Virus record (IMG/VR): IMGVR_UViG_3300018057_000017
Location: 1 to 44,435 of that record
Length of the DNA: 44,435 nt
Reading direction: 5' to 3' (one strand)
DNA from: a virus
Shown one piece after another: positions 6,761 through 14,072 of this stretch (within the stretch, counting starts at the first letter, position 1; every line of letters begins with the position of its first letter). Under the pieces are notes generated by a model. That model was not told where the DNA came from. It ran no database searches and saw nothing but the letters and a program-made list of their open reading frames with translations. Made by a program: the position numbers and the translations under genes.

Positions 6761-7372
6761 ATGATCAAAGATGAGAGGTTTGAACAATGGTGGCGAGAAT
6801 GGGTAGCTGTTCCGTACATGCAATCTAAGGATACGGCAAGAGCGGGTTGGGACGCTGCTATAGCCGAGATGCAGAAGCCCCAGGATCTCTCGACCTGCCC
6901 AGTGGGGCATTCGAGGGCGGAGCTGAGAAACATTGATATGGGCCAGCACACTACAAAAAAAGGAGATAATCCCCCGACGCGGGCTACTTTTATGTGCTGC
7001 GGAGCTTGCCTTGACCAAGCTGAGGCCGTCACCAAGGCCGAAGCCGTGACCGTGGAGAGGTGCTCAATACTAGTGTGCGCCCTCTGTACAGAAGGCAATC
7101 CTGTTGAGTGGCAAGAGTCCAAGCAGCGTTGGATTCACCGGGATACCGGCATCACGGTAAAGTGTGGAGCATCTGAGATTCGCTCCCTCCGCCCTGACCC
7201 GGACTTCCTGAACCGCGTGCGGCTGGAGGCGAGGCTGGAAGAGGCCAAGCTGGGATTGCATTACGCCAGTTGTGATCCTAGTCAAGGGGGATGCTGGCAG
7301 GAACGGCGCATTGCCGACCTCAAGCGCCAGATCAGGGAGGAGGGGGTGCAAAGTGGCGGTAAGCCCAGGTAA
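6761..7372 (+). CDS. Cys-rich hypothetical phage protein (203 aa)
   Basis: A 203-residue protein whose N terminus (DERFEQWWREW...AKDTARAGWDAA pattern) is common in small phage proteins of unknown function. Further on it has several cysteines (CCGACLDQ, CALCTEG, CGASE, CDPSQGGCW) that could bind metal. I choose ATG 6761 because AGGAGG lies seven bases upstream. The frame stays open to 6701, where an extra 20 residues with a CGRC pair would be added behind a weak ribosome-binding site. The 3' end overlaps the longest version of the next frame. Confidence 0.6.
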   Translation: MIKDERFEQWWREWVAVPYMQSKDTARAGWDAAIAEMQKPQDLSTCPVGHSRAELRNIDMGQHTTKKGDNPPTRATFMCCGACLDQAEAVTKAEAVTVERCSILVCALCTEGNPVEWQESKQRWIHRDTGITVKCGASEIRSLRPDPDFLNRVRLEARLEEAKLGLHYASCDPSQGGCWQERRIADLKRQIREEGVQSGGKPR

Positions 7373-9353: not shown

Positions 9354-10277
9354 GTGGTAAAACGCAAGGCAATGAAGCATAAGCCGATCACGCATCTCAA
9401 AGACTTGCATGCTGATCCGCGCAACGCTCGACTCCACGACAAGCGCAACATCGGCATGATTGAGCAATCGCTTGAGCAGTATGGTGCCGCGCGATCAATC
9501 GTGATAGATGAAACCGGCCAGATTATCGCTGGGCACGGAGTTCTAGAAGGTGCCGCCAACGTGGGGATCGAAAAGGTGATTTCTGTAGAGGCTACCGGCA
9601 ACGAGATCGTGGCCGTGGTACGCCGTGGCCTGACGCCGAAGCAGAAAGCGGAGTTGGCGATTGCCGATAACAGAGCATCAGATTTGAGCGAGATGGACCC
9701 TGCAATGCTGAAGTCTCTTTCCGATGAAGGGCTGGCCGATCTTGACAAGTTCTTCTTCCCGGAGGAATTGACGGCGCTCTTTGCCAATGCTCTCACGGAA
9801 GGCGACGCTGAGCACATCACGCCCGAAGAAGCGCACAAGACGCTGGCGGAGAGGTTCATTGTGCCTCCGTTCTCCGTGTTGGATGCCCGGCAGGGCTATT
9901 GGCAGGACCGCAAGCGGGCTTGGCTAGCACTGGGGATTCAGAGTGAACTGGGACGCAGGGAAACGAACTGCCCTGGCAGCCCTGGCGATAAGCGTGGCCC
10001 GGAGTGGAAACATTTCGCAGGTGACAAACAAACAAACAAAGCCAAACCTTCAAGGGCGGAGCACTATTCAGAGGCGGCGAATTCAGCGACCCGATTGACG
10101 CCAAGAACGCCTTCGGAAAGCGGATTGCAGAGAGAGAGAGAGAGAGAGAATATCAGCCTTCAAGAGCCAAGGGCGGCTAAACGAATTTCAGCATCGCCGG
10201 GCGGTTCACCAAGGCCAGCGGCAGACTACAGCAAAAGGCAGCGGGGTGATGGAAGGGGAAGGCCGATAGATGGGTAA
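9354..10277 (+). CDS. ParB/Srx-like N-terminal half of a ParB-methyltransferase locus
   Basis: Residues about 10-100 form a ParB/sulfiredoxin-like domain: DPRNARLHDKRNIGMIEQSL and GQIIAGHGVLEGA. Next comes IADNRASDLSEMDP, then TLAERFIVPPFSVLDARQGYWQDRKRAWLALGIQ. That last motif is, from memory, the linker of phage fusion proteins in which a ParB domain is followed by a DNA methylase. Here the frame ends early with a tail that crosses two simple-sequence repeats, (CAAA)4 and (AG)10, before GSPRPAADYSKRQRGDGRGRP and a stop. The methylase half is at 10413 in the same frame. GTG start with GGAGG upstream. The tail from about residue 205 is probably out of the original frame in part. Confidence 0.75.
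   Translation: MVKRKAMKHKPITHLKDLHADPRNARLHDKRNIGMIEQSLEQYGAARSIVIDETGQIIAGHGVLEGAANVGIEKVISVEATGNEIVAVVRRGLTPKQKAELAIADNRASDLSEMDPAMLKSLSDEGLADLDKFFFPEELTALFANALTEGDAEHITPEEAHKTLAERFIVPPFSVLDARQGYWQDRKRAWLALGIQSELGRRETNCPGSPGDKRGPEWKHFAGDKQTNKAKPSRAEHYSEAANSATRLTPRTPSESGLQRERERENISLQEPRAAKRISASPGGSPRPAADYSKRQRGDGRGRPIDG
10025..10040 (+). repeat. (CAAA)4 simple-sequence repeat
   Basis: Four CAAA units inside the ParB-like gene. Upstream the coherent frame is that of the ParB ORF. Downstream the most protein-like translation is in another frame, reading FKGGALFRGGEFSDPIDAKN. One more unit (+4) would join the two frames. Confidence 0.7.
10129..10148 (+). repeat. (AG)10 simple-sequence repeat
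   Basis: Ten AG units encoding alternating Arg-Glu in two frames. The frame coherent upstream (NAFGKRIAE) differs from that coherent downstream (SPGGSPRPAADYSKRQ). One more AG (+2) would connect them. Confidence 0.75.
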
Positions 10278-10395
10278 GAACGCGCGGTGTTTCGGGCAAG
10301 ATCTGATGCGGGGAGAGAATGCGAAATTTAACCTGGGTCGTAGGCAGGCAGGCAGGCAGGCAGGCAGCTTGACGATACAAGCCAGCGAATTCTGA
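10270..10395 (+). pseudogene. Frame-shifted linker segment between ParB and methylase parts
   Basis: A 41-codon frame, ATG overlapping the upstream stop (TAA at 10275-10277), reading GKNARCFGQDLMRGENAKFN and then running into the (GGCA)6 repeat and a stop. The GQDLMRGEN segment looks like part of the ParB-methyltransferase linker family. It is in a third frame relative to the two flanking ORFs, so it is either a separately re-initiated peptide or a stretch of the original gene displaced by frameshift. One GGCA unit more would fuse it to the methylase frame. Confidence 0.45.
10343..10366 (+). repeat. (GGCA)6 tetranucleotide repeat
   Basis: Six GGCA units immediately upstream of LDDTSQRILKGGRKAMARTW, the extended N terminus of the methylase frame. 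Tetranucleotide repeats at the 5' part of methyltransferase genes are the classic form of phase-variable loci in bacteria. Gain of one unit, or loss of two, would bring the 10270 frame into the methylase frame. Confidence 0.75.
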
Positions 10396-10412
10396 AAGGT
10401 GGAAGAAAGGCA

Positions 10413-11270
10413 ATGGCCCGAACTTGGTCCGCATCCCCGAACGCTTTAGCGGAAAGAATTGAACGACTGAAGCCGGGGGAAGAATATCTTGAGACAGTAT
10501 ATGGTGCCGATGGGCAGCCAACCGGCACGAGCATATTCGATGCCACCCTCTGTGAATTGATCTATCGCTGGTTTTGCCCTCCCAAGAGCAAAGTACTCGA
10601 CCCCTTCGCTGGGGGGAGTGTGCGTGGAATAGCGGCGGGCATCTTGGGCCTTGATTACGTGGGAATCGAGCTATCAAAGGGCCAGCTTGAGGCCAACCGA
10701 AAGCAAGCAAAGGATATTCTGAGTACTGGGGCGAACGGCTGGGCGGGAAAGAAAAGCTTTGGTCGAGTGCAGTGGATTGAAGGCGACGCCCTGAAAGCAG
10801 CGGTCCTCGCGCCGGGTAGCTACGATCTCATCTTCTCCTGTCCACCTTATGGGGATTTGGAGGTTTATTCGGATGATCCGCGCGATCTCTCCACAATGCC
10901 CCACGATAAATTCCTGGAGGCATACCGCCAGGTGATCCGCGTCTCTTGCGGAATGCTGAAGCCTAATCGCTTTGCCTGCTTCGTGGTGGGAGATTATCGT
11001 GACAAGCAGGGCTTTTACCGAAACTTCGTGAGCGATACGATTGCAGCTTTTGAATCAGCCCACATGAAGCTCTATAACGAAGCTATTTTGGTGACGGCGG
11101 TGGGAAGTCTGCCCATCCGCATCGGGACGGCCTTTGGGAAGTACCGCAAGTTGGGAAAGACCCATCAAAATGTGCTGGTGTTCTATAATGGCGATGTGCG
11201 GGAAATCCCAAAGGAATTTCCTGAGATTGAAGTTGTTGAGTTGGCATCTGCCTCGATAGAAGAATCGTAA
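10413..11270 (+). CDS. DNA methyltransferase, C-terminal half of the ParB-methylase locus
   Basis: A 285-residue AdoMet-dependent methylase. Motif I is LDPFAGGSVRGI (residues 62-73), motif IV is SCPPYGDL (142-149), and VGIELSKGQLEANR gives the acidic AdoMet-contacting residue. TGTSIFDATLCELIYRWFCPP before motif I is the typical joining segment of ParB-methylase fusions. ATG 10413 is preceded by GGTGGAAGAAAGG. The coding frame extends further upstream (LDDTSQRILKGGRKA) to the GGCA repeat, so the ATG may be internal to an older, longer gene. Target base not known; CPPY is typical of N6A/N4C enzymes. Confidence 0.8.
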   Translation: MARTWSASPNALAERIERLKPGEEYLETVYGADGQPTGTSIFDATLCELIYRWFCPPKSKVLDPFAGGSVRGIAAGILGLDYVGIELSKGQLEANRKQAKDILSTGANGWAGKKSFGRVQWIEGDALKAAVLAPGSYDLIFSCPPYGDLEVYSDDPRDLSTMPHDKFLEAYRQVIRVSCGMLKPNRFACFVVGDYRDKQGFYRNFVSDTIAAFESAHMKLYNEAILVTAVGSLPIRIGTAFGKYRKLGKTHQNVLVFYNGDVREIPKEFPEIEVVELASASIEES

Positions 11271-11332: not shown

Positions 11333-11941
11333 ATGGCCCCGCGCAAGCTCGACCTGAGAACCCGCCAGCGACTAATGAAGTCGAGGATGGGGAAGGCGCC
11401 CAAGCGCCAGCCTCCCAAGGTCAAGAAACCTGTCGGCAGGCCGCCCATGTACAGCAAAGACAAGGCGGCTCGCATCTGCATCGAGATCGCCACGACGACC
11501 CGCAGCCTGAAGGACATCTGCGACAGCAATCCTACCTTTCCAGACCCAAGGACAGTTTATAAATGGCTTTCCTTGAATGAAGAGTTCAGGCAGATGTATC
11601 AATCAGCCAAGCAGGATCAGGCTCAGATTCTGGCTGACGAGCTGATCGCGATAGCCGACACTCCCAAGCACGGGCAAGTCATAACGGCGTGGCCCGGTCA
11701 GAAGGATAGGGCCGGGAATCCCAAGCCAAAAGAGATCAAGGTTGCCGACATGATCGAGCACCGACGCCTTCAGATCGAGACGCGGCGCTGGCTGCTCTCA
11801 AAGCTCAGGCCGAGGGAGTATGGCGACAAGATCGAGGTGACTGAGGGAAGCGACCCACTGCAAGAGCTTCTGGACGCATGGCGCGAGGAGCACGCTCAGC
11901 AGGTGAAAAAGGAACAATCCAGTGTCAAGCCAGCGACTTAA
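11333..11941 (+). CDS. terS: Terminase small subunit
   Basis: A 202-residue protein that would recognise phage DNA and start packaging. The basic N terminus (KRQPPKVKKPVGRPP) is followed by a helix-turn-helix-like region, AARICIEIATTTRSLKDICD...TVYKWLSLNEEF, typical of small-terminase and transposase-type HTH domains. The middle region (ADTPKHGQV...KVADMIEHRRLQIETRRWLLSKLRPREYGDK) matches the oligomerisation part of this family. It overlaps the start of the large subunit by about 20 bases, the usual arrangement. A 60-base AT-rich gap precedes it. Confidence 0.85.
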   Translation: MAPRKLDLRTRQRLMKSRMGKAPKRQPPKVKKPVGRPPMYSKDKAARICIEIATTTRSLKDICDSNPTFPDPRTVYKWLSLNEEFRQMYQSAKQDQAQILADELIAIADTPKHGQVITAWPGQKDRAGNPKPKEIKVADMIEHRRLQIETRRWLLSKLRPREYGDKIEVTEGSDPLQELLDAWREEHAQQVKKEQSSVKPAT

Positions 11942-14072
11942 CTTCGGAGAGAGACTTGGAAGGTTCGCCAAAACCCCTCCCGAAGAAGACTGCAAGCTCA
12001 GCATCCTAGAAGGCTCCGTCCGGTCAGGCAAAACTTGGGCACAGCATGCTAAGATTCTTTGGGGCTGCCGGTACAACGTCGCCGGATGGAAGGTTCTCAC
12101 TGGAGTAACCAAAGACACCGTTTTCAAGAATGTGCTCAACGATCTGTTCTCTTTGATCGGTCCCCACAGGTACTCTTACAACCATCAATCCGGGCTGCTG
12201 AGAATCGACCGCTCGACATGGACGGTGATGGGAGCGAAGGACGAGGGCTCGGAGAAGTTCATCCGCGGGTTGACCGTTGGTTACGTGGTCTGCGACGAGC
12301 TCTCGCTGATGCCCTTCGAATTCCTTCAAATGCTCATCACGCGCATGTCGCCGGAGGGGGCGCGGCTCTACGGCAGCACCAACGCTGACACGCCTCTTCA
12401 TCCTCTGAGGACAGAGATCCTGGACAACCAGAAGCTGACGGACGCCGGGCTGCTGTACTCGATGCATTGCACGATGGACGATAATCCGAATCTCACGGAA
12501 GAGTACAAAAAATCTCAGGAGCTTCTGTACACTGGGCTTTTCTATCAGCGCTACATCAAGGGCTTGTGGGTGATGGCCGAGGGCGTGATCTACAGAGACG
12601 CGTGGAAAGACGAGAGCACGTTCACGGACAAAGACTTGCCTGTCGGCTTGATGTGGGGCGGACAGACTCGTGAGCGCGTTATCTCGGTCGATTACGGAAC
12701 GGTGAACCCGAACGTGTTTCTGGATTGGCGCGATGATGGAGTGACGGCCTGGTGCTACAATGAAAAACGTTGGGATTCCGCCAAAGAGATGAAACAGAAG
12801 ACGGATTCTGAGCTTGCCGACGACTTGTACGAGTTCACGGAGCATGACCAATCTCCTCAGATCGTGGTCGATCCCAGCGCGGCCAGCTTCAAGCAGGAGC
12901 TGACGAACCGAGGCTGGTGGGTGACGGATGCCGTGAACGACGTTCAGTCTGGCATTTCAAAAACTTCCACCGCGCTGGCCAAAGGTGTGATAAGGTTTCA
13001 CCGTGACAACTGCAAGGCGACGATCGCCGAGTTCCAAACATACGCCTGGGACCCTAAGAGGGCGCTGCGCGGGATCGAGGAGCCAATTAAATCTGGCGAT
13101 CATGGATGTTTTATAGCAGGAACGAAAATCATGACTCCTGATGGCGAAAGAAATATTGAAGAGTTCCGTGCCGGAGATCGTGTCCTTACTCCCCTCGGTC
13201 AGTGTAAAGTCCTTACAGTCCGAGAAATTCCCGACCAGCAGATTGTCGAGTGGCATCGCTTGCGAGGACTGCCGAATCATCCAATCGCTACGAGAAAAGG
13301 CTGGACAAGGATTGATGCCACGAGATATAATGAGCAAGTATGCGAGTGGAATCCAGAACATTCAACGGTATCATTTTCAGGCGCTATCCAGAAGCTAAAG
13401 ACTGGTCTAGCCGCAATTATTTCAGGCCGAGCCAGGTTCATGGTCGTAAGAGAGTGGAGAGCCTTCACCGGGAAGTGTGGAAAAAATATCATGGTGCTAT
13501 TCCAAAAGGCTATGATGTTCATCACGCGGATGATGATACCGGAAACAATGACATCACCAATCTGGAATTGTTGCCCGGGCCTATTCATGATTCGCTTTCT
13601 GGAAAGAAAGCATCTCATGATTTCGAGCACCTTGCCAGAATACGGCCACTGGCTAAAGCATGGCACGCATCACCAGAAGGATTGGACTGGCATCGAGATC
13701 ATGGGAAAGAAGCGATGCAAAAACGCAAGGCTGTTGGATTCATCTGTCAGAACTGCGGTGCGCATTTTCTTTCGAAACAGCGCGGCGAATGCGCTAAATT
13801 CTGCTCTAACAAGTGCAAGTCGGCTGCCAGGCGTAAATCGGGCGTGGACGATGTTCCCAAGATTTGCGCGACATGCAGCGAGACTTTCCTCGCTAATAAA
13901 TATCAAAGAATCCTCAATTGTCCAAAGTGCCGTTAAAGATGCTGGCAGAGCAAGTGTCTTTGCACTGAGAACGGAGCATGGGTGCTATTATGCGAATGGC
14001 ATCCTTGTTAGCAATTGTGACGCGGCCAGATATTTCTGTGCCACCAAGATTCCGGTCTGGCGGCTGATGTGA
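11922..14072 (+). CDS. terL: Terminase large subunit with intein (716 aa precursor)
   Basis: The packaging motor ATPase and nuclease. Walker A is GSVRSGKT (residues 31-38) and Walker B is VVCDE (122-126). The extein resumes at the last nuclease motif, which in the family reads DHxxDAxRY; here GDHG is followed by an intein (residues 396-698) and then CDAARY. After splicing the protein would be 413 residues. Without splicing the conserved Asp of the nuclease site is displaced, so the precursor should be inactive as a nuclease. GTG start, overlapping TerS. An HNH gene lies inside the intein in another frame (13340-13936). Confidence 0.9.
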   Translation: MSSQRLNFGERLGRFAKTPPEEDCKLSILEGSVRSGKTWAQHAKILWGCRYNVAGWKVLTGVTKDTVFKNVLNDLFSLIGPHRYSYNHQSGLLRIDRSTWTVMGAKDEGSEKFIRGLTVGYVVCDELSLMPFEFLQMLITRMSPEGARLYGSTNADTPLHPLRTEILDNQKLTDAGLLYSMHCTMDDNPNLTEEYKKSQELLYTGLFYQRYIKGLWVMAEGVIYRDAWKDESTFTDKDLPVGLMWGGQTRERVISVDYGTVNPNVFLDWRDDGVTAWCYNEKRWDSAKEMKQKTDSELADDLYEFTEHDQSPQIVVDPSAASFKQELTNRGWWVTDAVNDVQSGISKTSTALAKGVIRFHRDNCKATIAEFQTYAWDPKRALRGIEEPIKSGDHGCFIAGTKIMTPDGERNIEEFRAGDRVLTPLGQCKVLTVREIPDQQIVEWHRLRGLPNHPIATRKGWTRIDATRYNEQVCEWNPEHSTVSFSGAIQKLKTGLAAIISGRARFMVVREWRAFTGKCGKNIMVLFQKAMMFITRMMIPETMTSPIWNCCPGLFMIRFLERKHLMISSTLPEYGHWLKHGTHHQKDWTGIEIMGKKRCKNARLLDSSVRTAVRIFFRNSAANALNSALTSASRLPGVNRAWTMFPRFARHAARLSSLINIKESSIVQSAVKDAGRASVFALRTEHGCYYANGILVSNCDAARYFCATKIPVWRLM
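13107..14015 (+). other. Intein within terL
   Basis: 303 codons with clear splicing blocks. Block A is CFIAGTKIMTPDGERNIEEF with the nucleophilic Cys, block B is GLPNHPIATRKGW (the NHP of TxxH-type blocks), and the C-terminal end is GCYYANGILVSN followed by Cys of the extein. It sits exactly at the catalytic-Asp motif of the TerL nuclease. The splicing parts occupy about the first 80 and last 30 codons. The 190 codons between look like nonsense in this frame, because the DNA there encodes an HNH protein in the -1 frame; yet the intein frame contains no stop. Confidence 0.85.
13340..13936 (+). CDS. HNH homing-type endonuclease nested out of frame in the intein
   Basis: A 198-residue protein with an HNH core: LHREVWKKYHG, then YDVHHADDD (His61-His62) and DITNLELLPGPIHDSL (Asn73), the layout of phage homing HNH enzymes. 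Two CxxC-type zinc-binding pieces follow: CQNCGAHF...CSNKCKSAARR and CATCSETF...CPKCR. Its ATG lies at the end of the intein's N-terminal splicing domain and its stop at the start of the C-terminal one. It probably cleaves intein-less terL and spreads the element. The ribosome-binding site is weak, so translation may need re-initiation or frameshifting; it could also be a frameshifted relic. Confidence 0.75.
   Translation: MRVESRTFNGIIFRRYPEAKDWSSRNYFRPSQVHGRKRVESLHREVWKKYHGAIPKGYDVHHADDDTGNNDITNLELLPGPIHDSLSGKKASHDFEHLARIRPLAKAWHASPEGLDWHRDHGKEAMQKRKAVGFICQNCGAHFLSKQRGECAKFCSNKCKSAARRKSGVDDVPKICATCSETFLANKYQRILNCPKCR

Follow-up and report, generated by a model that had tools for sequence, protein, structure and literature searches.

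Non-triplet repeat tracts at a ParB-methyltransferase junction in an uncultured phage and its relatives

Phase-variable methyltransferases are known in bacteria, for example the Type III mod genes, in which a tetranucleotide tract shifts the reading frame near the N-terminus, and phase variation has mostly been studied as a bacterial defence against phages. The locus described here resembles mod in being a methyltransferase gene with a frame-shifting tetranucleotide tract near its N-terminus, whereas mod is a bacterial restriction-modification gene and the present enzyme is a phage ParB-linked core. As for phages, Sorensen et al. are said to have described, in 2021 (Cell Rep 35:109214), hypermutable polyG tracts in the receptor-binding genes of Campylobacter Fletchervirus. 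Repeat switching in Campylobacter phage receptor-binding genes, as set out in excerpts of two reports (PMC8766974, PMC10877375), likewise places slippage-prone tracts in phage genes and diversifies phage populations; there the products are receptor-binding proteins and the tracts polyG, whereas here the tracts lie at a ParB-methyltransferase junction and also consist of AG, GGCA, GAAC, ACCG, GACA and other units. In cryoconite phages, methyltransferases outnumbered all other known genes in the variable islands of the phage genomes, and the excerpted text has orphan methyltransferases varying by gene gain, loss and exchange, with repeat tracts unmentioned in that excerpt (PMC7468147). A search of the openly licensed PMC literature turned up no account of a ParB-methyltransferase of phages that varies through repeats.

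The closest described protein is the phage ParB-methyltransferase fusion phrog_498, exemplified by the DNA methyltransferase of Erythrobacter phage ZS04, to which the two open reading frames of our locus match in successive parts. In ZS04 and in Pseudanabaena phage Pam4 the fusion is annotated as one gene, with no non-triplet tract in the stretch examined, whereas our locus is split into two overlapping cistrons with non-triplet tracts in the linker. The same two-cistron layout is found in an isolate, Microcystis phage Mae-JY30, where it is annotated as two genes, a ParB/sulfiredoxin pair; its second cistron begins MAKGKARTFGQDLMRGE within an 8-nt overlap, but the Mae-JY30 linker is tract-free. 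Mae-JY30 also carries, upstream of its ParB gene, two C9 runs at a spacing of 53 nt (L445:1013 and 1066).

The locus and its reading frames

The window, meaning the whole stretch of DNA analysed, comprises positions 1 to 44,435 of the IMG/VR virus record IMGVR_UViG_3300018057_000017, from an uncultured phage. The features of the locus are as follows.

9354..10277, + strand: cistron 1, 307 aa, an intact open frame with a ParB-like N-terminal domain, a DARQG element and a conserved tail ending GGSPRPAADYSKRQRGDGRGRPIDG
9864..9956, + strand: PPFSVLDARQGYWQDRKR..SELGR element, the part of the methyltransferase module encoded by cistron 1 (alignments A2 and A3; model of the fused L325)
10025..10040, + strand: (CAAA)4 tract, perfect, within the open ParB frame
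10129..10148, + strand: (AG)10 tract, perfect, within the open ParB frame
10155..10277, + strand: conserved linker block under purifying selection in the ParB frame
10270..10277, + strand: 8-nt stop/start overlap ATGGGTAA, the putative coupling junction of the two cistrons, conserved in split relatives and in Mae-JY30
10270..10395, + strand: start of cistron 2 as read, MGKNARCFGQDLMRGEN..., in frame +1, ending early after the GGCA tract
10343..10366, + strand: (GGCA)6 tract, perfect, site of the sole true frame break
10344..11270, + strand: open frame of the methyltransferase core, LDDTSQRILK followed by the core
10413..11270, + strand: methyltransferase open reading frame from an internal ATG, 285 aa, with AGGTGG upstream
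10599-10616, + strand: motif I of the methyltransferase core, DPFAGG
10839-10850, + strand: motif IV of the methyltransferase core, CPPY

The phrog_498 profile (633 long) was matched in succession by the cistron 1 open reading frame (37-205, E 2e-31) and the methyltransferase open reading frame (355-613, E 4e-75), and by these matches the locus is a two-cistron form of the known fusion. The single continuous frame of phrog_498 is absent from the window, being replaced by two overlapping cistrons and a break at GGCA; the linker is likewise not one frame in 132 of the 276 surveyed among the matches listed. Profile A2 of the ParB part matched Spo0J and ParB chains with E values of 1e-4 to 1e-2, and a Pfam search of this part gave no match at 0.001. 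The methyltransferase core matched Pfam N6_N4_Mtase (E 7.5e-10), with motif I and CPPY invariant in alignment A1. Judging from the sequence families DNA is the probable substrate, and Foldseek returned the general class I methyltransferase fold, with tRNA enzymes as the best matches. Across 54 fused proteins the PPFSVLDARQGYWQDRKR element is nearly as conserved as the core, and it is retained in L325 even though this protein lacks a ParB domain (no Pfam match to one). An AlphaFold2 model of L325 (mean pLDDT 73, pTM 0.69) gave high confidence for the PPFSVLDARQGYWQDRKR element and the core and values below 50 for most of the linker, where a short helix at LDDVSKKIL was modelled more confidently; the window's tracts map onto the linker part modelled as mostly below 50. 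Directly downstream of the methyltransferase lies an Sf6-type small terminase. The large terminase open reading frame beyond it (window 11922-14072, 716 aa) has a Hint/Vint-type domain at residues 395-462 and thus probably carries an intein.

The three repeats reported by the first-pass annotation are present and perfect, packed into 342 bases, and the same thresholds yielded no further tract anywhere else in the 44,435-base window. Among 5000 dinucleotide-preserving shuffles of the region 9900-10420, three or more tracts arose in 1 and at least one tract in 460. All three non-triplet tracts lie within coding frames, CAAA and AG in cistron 1 and GGCA in cistron 2. The annotation had placed a change of frame at each of them, which holds for GGCA but not for CAAA and AG, which sit within an intact frame. 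The ParB open reading frame runs from 9354 to 10277 through both of these tracts, and for its tail GGSPRPAADYSKRQRGDGRGRPI, ending GGSPRPAADYSKRQRGDGRGRPIDG, there are 63 matching loci beyond the window's own population. The peptide FSDPIDAKNAFGKRIAE, proposed to be read in a second frame between CAAA and AG, had no match among the loci collected. In addition, the block 10155-10277 showed a dN/dS of 0.10 in the ParB frame against 1.2 and 4.1 in the other two, so that purifying selection was detected in the ParB frame only, in this one pair of 38-40 codons. Frame switches at CAAA and AG were thus rejected, given the open ParB frame and the matchless second-frame peptide. These tracts could still matter, since the relative L006 has (AGAAC)3 there and its ParB frame ends 89 nt before the second cistron.

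Cistron 2 is different. The motif MGKNARCFGQDLMRGEN, its first motif-bearing segment, lies in frame +1 relative to ParB and matches 52 loci, while LDDTSQRILK, just 3' of (GGCA)6, is already in the methyltransferase frame; read from its start, cistron 2 crosses the tract and stops at 10395. The two motifs are therefore in different frames, as had been claimed, and in intact relatives (L325, L250, L038 and L030) they are joined in one. Since FGQDLM[RK]GE and the LDD/MDD/LDE motif share a single frame in the fused L325, L250 and L038, we place the single break of the locus at GGCA. Both ParB and the core evolve under purifying selection, and coding sequence is conserved on either side of the GGCA tract. 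The core has no internal stop, and the first ATG in its frame, at 10413, lies 47 bases past the tract with AGGTGG before it. This internal start may bypass the tract, making the core whatever the tract length.

A fourth frame switch had been suggested near 10270. No frame break is found there; what stands of the suggestion is the overlapping ATG, which at 10270 overlaps the cistron 1 stop at 10275-10277. The exact 8-nt overlap, typically ATGGCTAA, is present in 60 of 96 split loci with linkers below 620 nt among the matches listed, and in 76 of these 96 a ParB-frame stop falls within coupling distance of the start before FGQDLMRGE. Given this conservation, the two cistrons are probably coupled at the junction whichever reading of the tracts holds, and a single gene with four breaks was dropped in favour of two overlapping cistrons.

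Tracts in the relatives

Protein similarity or the FGQDLMRGE pattern, and not the presence of a tract, served to gather the counted loci; a few window copies from a tract-based search were also included and brought no new linker. The 276 linkers are a sample among the matches listed, with exact duplicates removed and near-duplicates kept. Non-triplet tracts were found in 47 of 132 split linkers against 2 of 144 fused ones in this sample. Split linkers held 89 tracts in 65,729 nt, compared with 43 in 924,837 nt of flanks of the same loci, and fused linkers held 6 in 30,645 nt; tetranucleotide tracts numbered 9 in split linkers and 0 in the same loci outside the linker. When linkers were clustered at 75% identity, omitting two mixed clusters, 17 of 31 split clusters and 2 of 96 fused ones had a tract (Fisher p 7e-11), although the split and fused classes are partly defined by the breaks themselves. 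Because of this circularity we used a narrower test, the frame between FGQDLMRGE and the core, in the 107 split loci having FGQDLMRGE among the matches listed. Of the 28 loci with a tract between the two, 17 had them out of frame, compared with 12 of the 79 others (p 1e-5); by cluster the figures were 8 of 10 with a tract and 1 of 10 without (p 0.005). Similarly, the coupling overlap was lost in 10 of 21 loci with a tract before cistron 2, compared with 10 of 75 others (p 0.002). The operon also works without tracts, as seen from the 64 tract-free split loci in which this frame is joined, together with 11 of the 28 that have a tract after the motif.

The tract types at these fixed places turn over between close relatives. 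L006 and L007, 76% identical to the window in ParB and 84% in the core, have none of its three tracts but carry (AGAAC)3 and (GAAC)4 at corresponding places, the (AGAAC)3 of L006 where the window has (AG)10, as well as a third repeat that differs between them. Elsewhere we found (AGGC)15 between the overlapping ATG and FGQDLMKGE (L204), (ACCG)6 (L047), (ACGG)5 with (GCAG)5 (L313), (GACA)8 (L358), (GCAACGG)4 (L187) and, in many relatives, G8 to G13. A quick tree built from 129 split loci requires at least 18 changes of tract label, 6 of them forced by well-supported branches. Differences of a single unit were also seen: G9 versus G10 is the sole indel over 3196 bp, with two mismatches, between L259 and L028, and G9 versus G8 is the sole indel over 740 bp, with no mismatch, between L061 and L190, both clean differences lying in G tracts, the class most prone to assembly error. 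L029, 94% identical to the L259/L028 pair, has a further tract combination.

GGCA itself is not confined to this locus. Of 93 tracts of (GGCA)6+ found in IMG/VR stretches, 8 were close to a profile match for ParB or the methyltransferase, one of them weak (L414) and four in copies of the window's own phage, which ruled out (GGCA)6 as a signature of the gene. The other tracts mostly appear outside long conserved genes (ten loci inspected), so GGCA is also a general phage microsatellite. Among phage records with flanks 99.6-100% identical, and with tracts mostly outside long conserved genes, GGCA copy numbers were 17 and 22 (L384, L386, L406 and L439 versus L409), 10 and 9 (L387 versus L388 and L407) and 6 and 7 (L377 versus L418 and L422).

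How the tracts may act

The tracts, the frames, the conserved junction, the family-wide enrichment and the single-unit length differences in relatives were observed directly, and we regard it as about an even call whether they mark a family of repeat-driven contingency loci at the ParB-methyltransferase junction, a reading for which we infer the slippage and its rate, the effect on expression and the benefit of a switch. Slippage-prone tracts flank the cistron junction in a disordered linker, and polymerase slippage at them would change the reading frame. The frame of the cistron 1 tail, set by CAAA and AG, would determine whether translation terminates at the coupling junction, and that of cistron 2, set by GGCA, whether its N-terminal part is continuous with the methyltransferase core or is cut short. 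A phage population might then contain variants with a joined, coupled or uncoupled enzyme, and the contingency locus could serve as a hedge against host restriction; in the state captured by the window, cistron 1 is in the coupling frame and cistron 2 is broken at GGCA. The first-pass annotation had proposed a phase-variable methyltransferase with three contingency tracts. The family comparison favours a repeat-driven locus, but only the GGCA tract lies at a break. Since a methyltransferase-frame ATG soon follows the tract in 17 of 28 loci, the tract may select between joined and re-initiated translation instead of acting as a simple on/off switch.

The different slippery repeats at the same junction in relatives suggest that some phages may switch or re-wire the methyltransferase at random. 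We would give somewhat less than even credence to the wider proposal that, in many phages, one conserved stop/start junction houses a dedicated switch driven by repeats, choosing at random among fused, coupled and separate (or absent) forms. If so, phages would be using phase variation on an enzyme able to protect their own DNA from restriction, the virions of one burst would differ in epigenetic marking or in ParB-methyltransferase linkage, and the interchangeable tracts would form a bet-hedging device: a population would hold several states, and how well it fared against restriction systems would in part be random and heritable. The family offers a natural experiment in which a single junction shows many unrelated tract types and both fused and split forms, with intact relatives as controls. 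It also cautions annotators against assuming that such genes are broken pseudogenes.

The strongest competitor, though an unlikely one, is that the tracts are tolerated microsatellites with no regulatory role, gathering in a disordered linker where the frame is irrelevant because the methyltransferase has its own start after the tract. The linker is indeed modelled as disordered, an ATG follows the tract within 4 codons in 17 of 28 loci (expected 1.1), ATG 10413 of the window has its AGGTGG, and GGCA tracts lie outside long conserved genes in other phages too. However, tracts are about 30 times fewer in the non-coding and flanking DNA of the same loci, the motifs on either side of the tract are conserved in at least 52 loci, and tracts sit beside a start codon more regularly than neutral scatter would allow, which could point to a control of initiation.

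We consider it rather improbable that the switch is ancestral to the family while the methyltransferase of this lineage has been locked off and is losing function. A T/C polymorphism at window position 10839 changes the first residue of motif IV (C143R) in three of six records (L003, L004 and L008), a position that is Cys in 257 and Ser in 3 of the 260 surveyed loci in which the motif was found (16 loci gave no match). Nor do the tracts vary in the window's own population: GGCA has 6 units in all four other records covering it, CAAA 4 and AG 10 are unchanged in three other covering records, and tract lengths were thus identical in every near-copy sampled. Over 5-11 kb, the near-copies that carry GGCA show 0 to 2 SNPs against the window; L008, whose coverage misses the tracts, shows four. 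On the other hand, Cys143 is kept in the window, L002 and L005, and the core is stop-free with a pN of 0.095 against a pS of 0.78 relative to L006, although these values reflect older selection. Decay, one of the two main alternatives named at the outset, thus fits poorly at the level of the family, where ParB also has a dN/dS of 0.08 (window versus L006) and a pure pseudogene is not supported; C143R leaves it as an account of this lineage.

Programmed ribosomal frameshifting or reinitiation at the tract, which would yield a joined product with no change in the DNA, seems to us quite improbable. The stop/start overlap conserved in 60 of 96 loci speaks for it, but the tract types differ too much among relatives for one frameshift signal and the GGCA, GAAC, ACCG and GACA repeats are not known to be slippery heptamers. 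Assembly or sequencing error, the other alternative named at the outset, is very improbable: short-read assemblies can miscount long tracts, and the G-tract differences belong to that miscount-prone class, but the window's tracts span just 16 to 24 nt, relatives have other tracts at the same places, and four other records, with 0 to 2 SNPs over thousands of bases, share the exact GGCA length.

Possible host and additional linker genes

A first scan of genome contigs confirmed no relative, and searching isolate phages at the DNA level yielded just two short matches. Profile A1 found copies 62-66% identical on two short Terriglobia MAG contigs (L097 and L103), which hints at a host in Acidobacteriota, although these matches may be binning noise.

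Some long linkers contain a third gene. In L022 (5747-6430) it starts in an ATGA overlap with the ParB stop and has a weak pyridoxal-phosphate enzyme match (Pfam PALP E 1.4e-6, below its cut-off), and it is also present in L020, L024, L030, L035, L076 and L349; in the isolate Pam4, a single open reading frame, annotated as a pyridoxal-phosphate enzyme, extends over both ParB and the methyltransferase. Judged by eye, the long linkers of L022, L024, L028, L035, L043 and L082 seem to share a short antisense frame of similar sequence. On the reverse strand of L258, (GGCA)7 at 7216-7243 lies before a second copy of PPFSVLDARQG and after FGQDLMRGE and a pyridoxal-phosphate-like gene, an arrangement in which the modules are shuffled.
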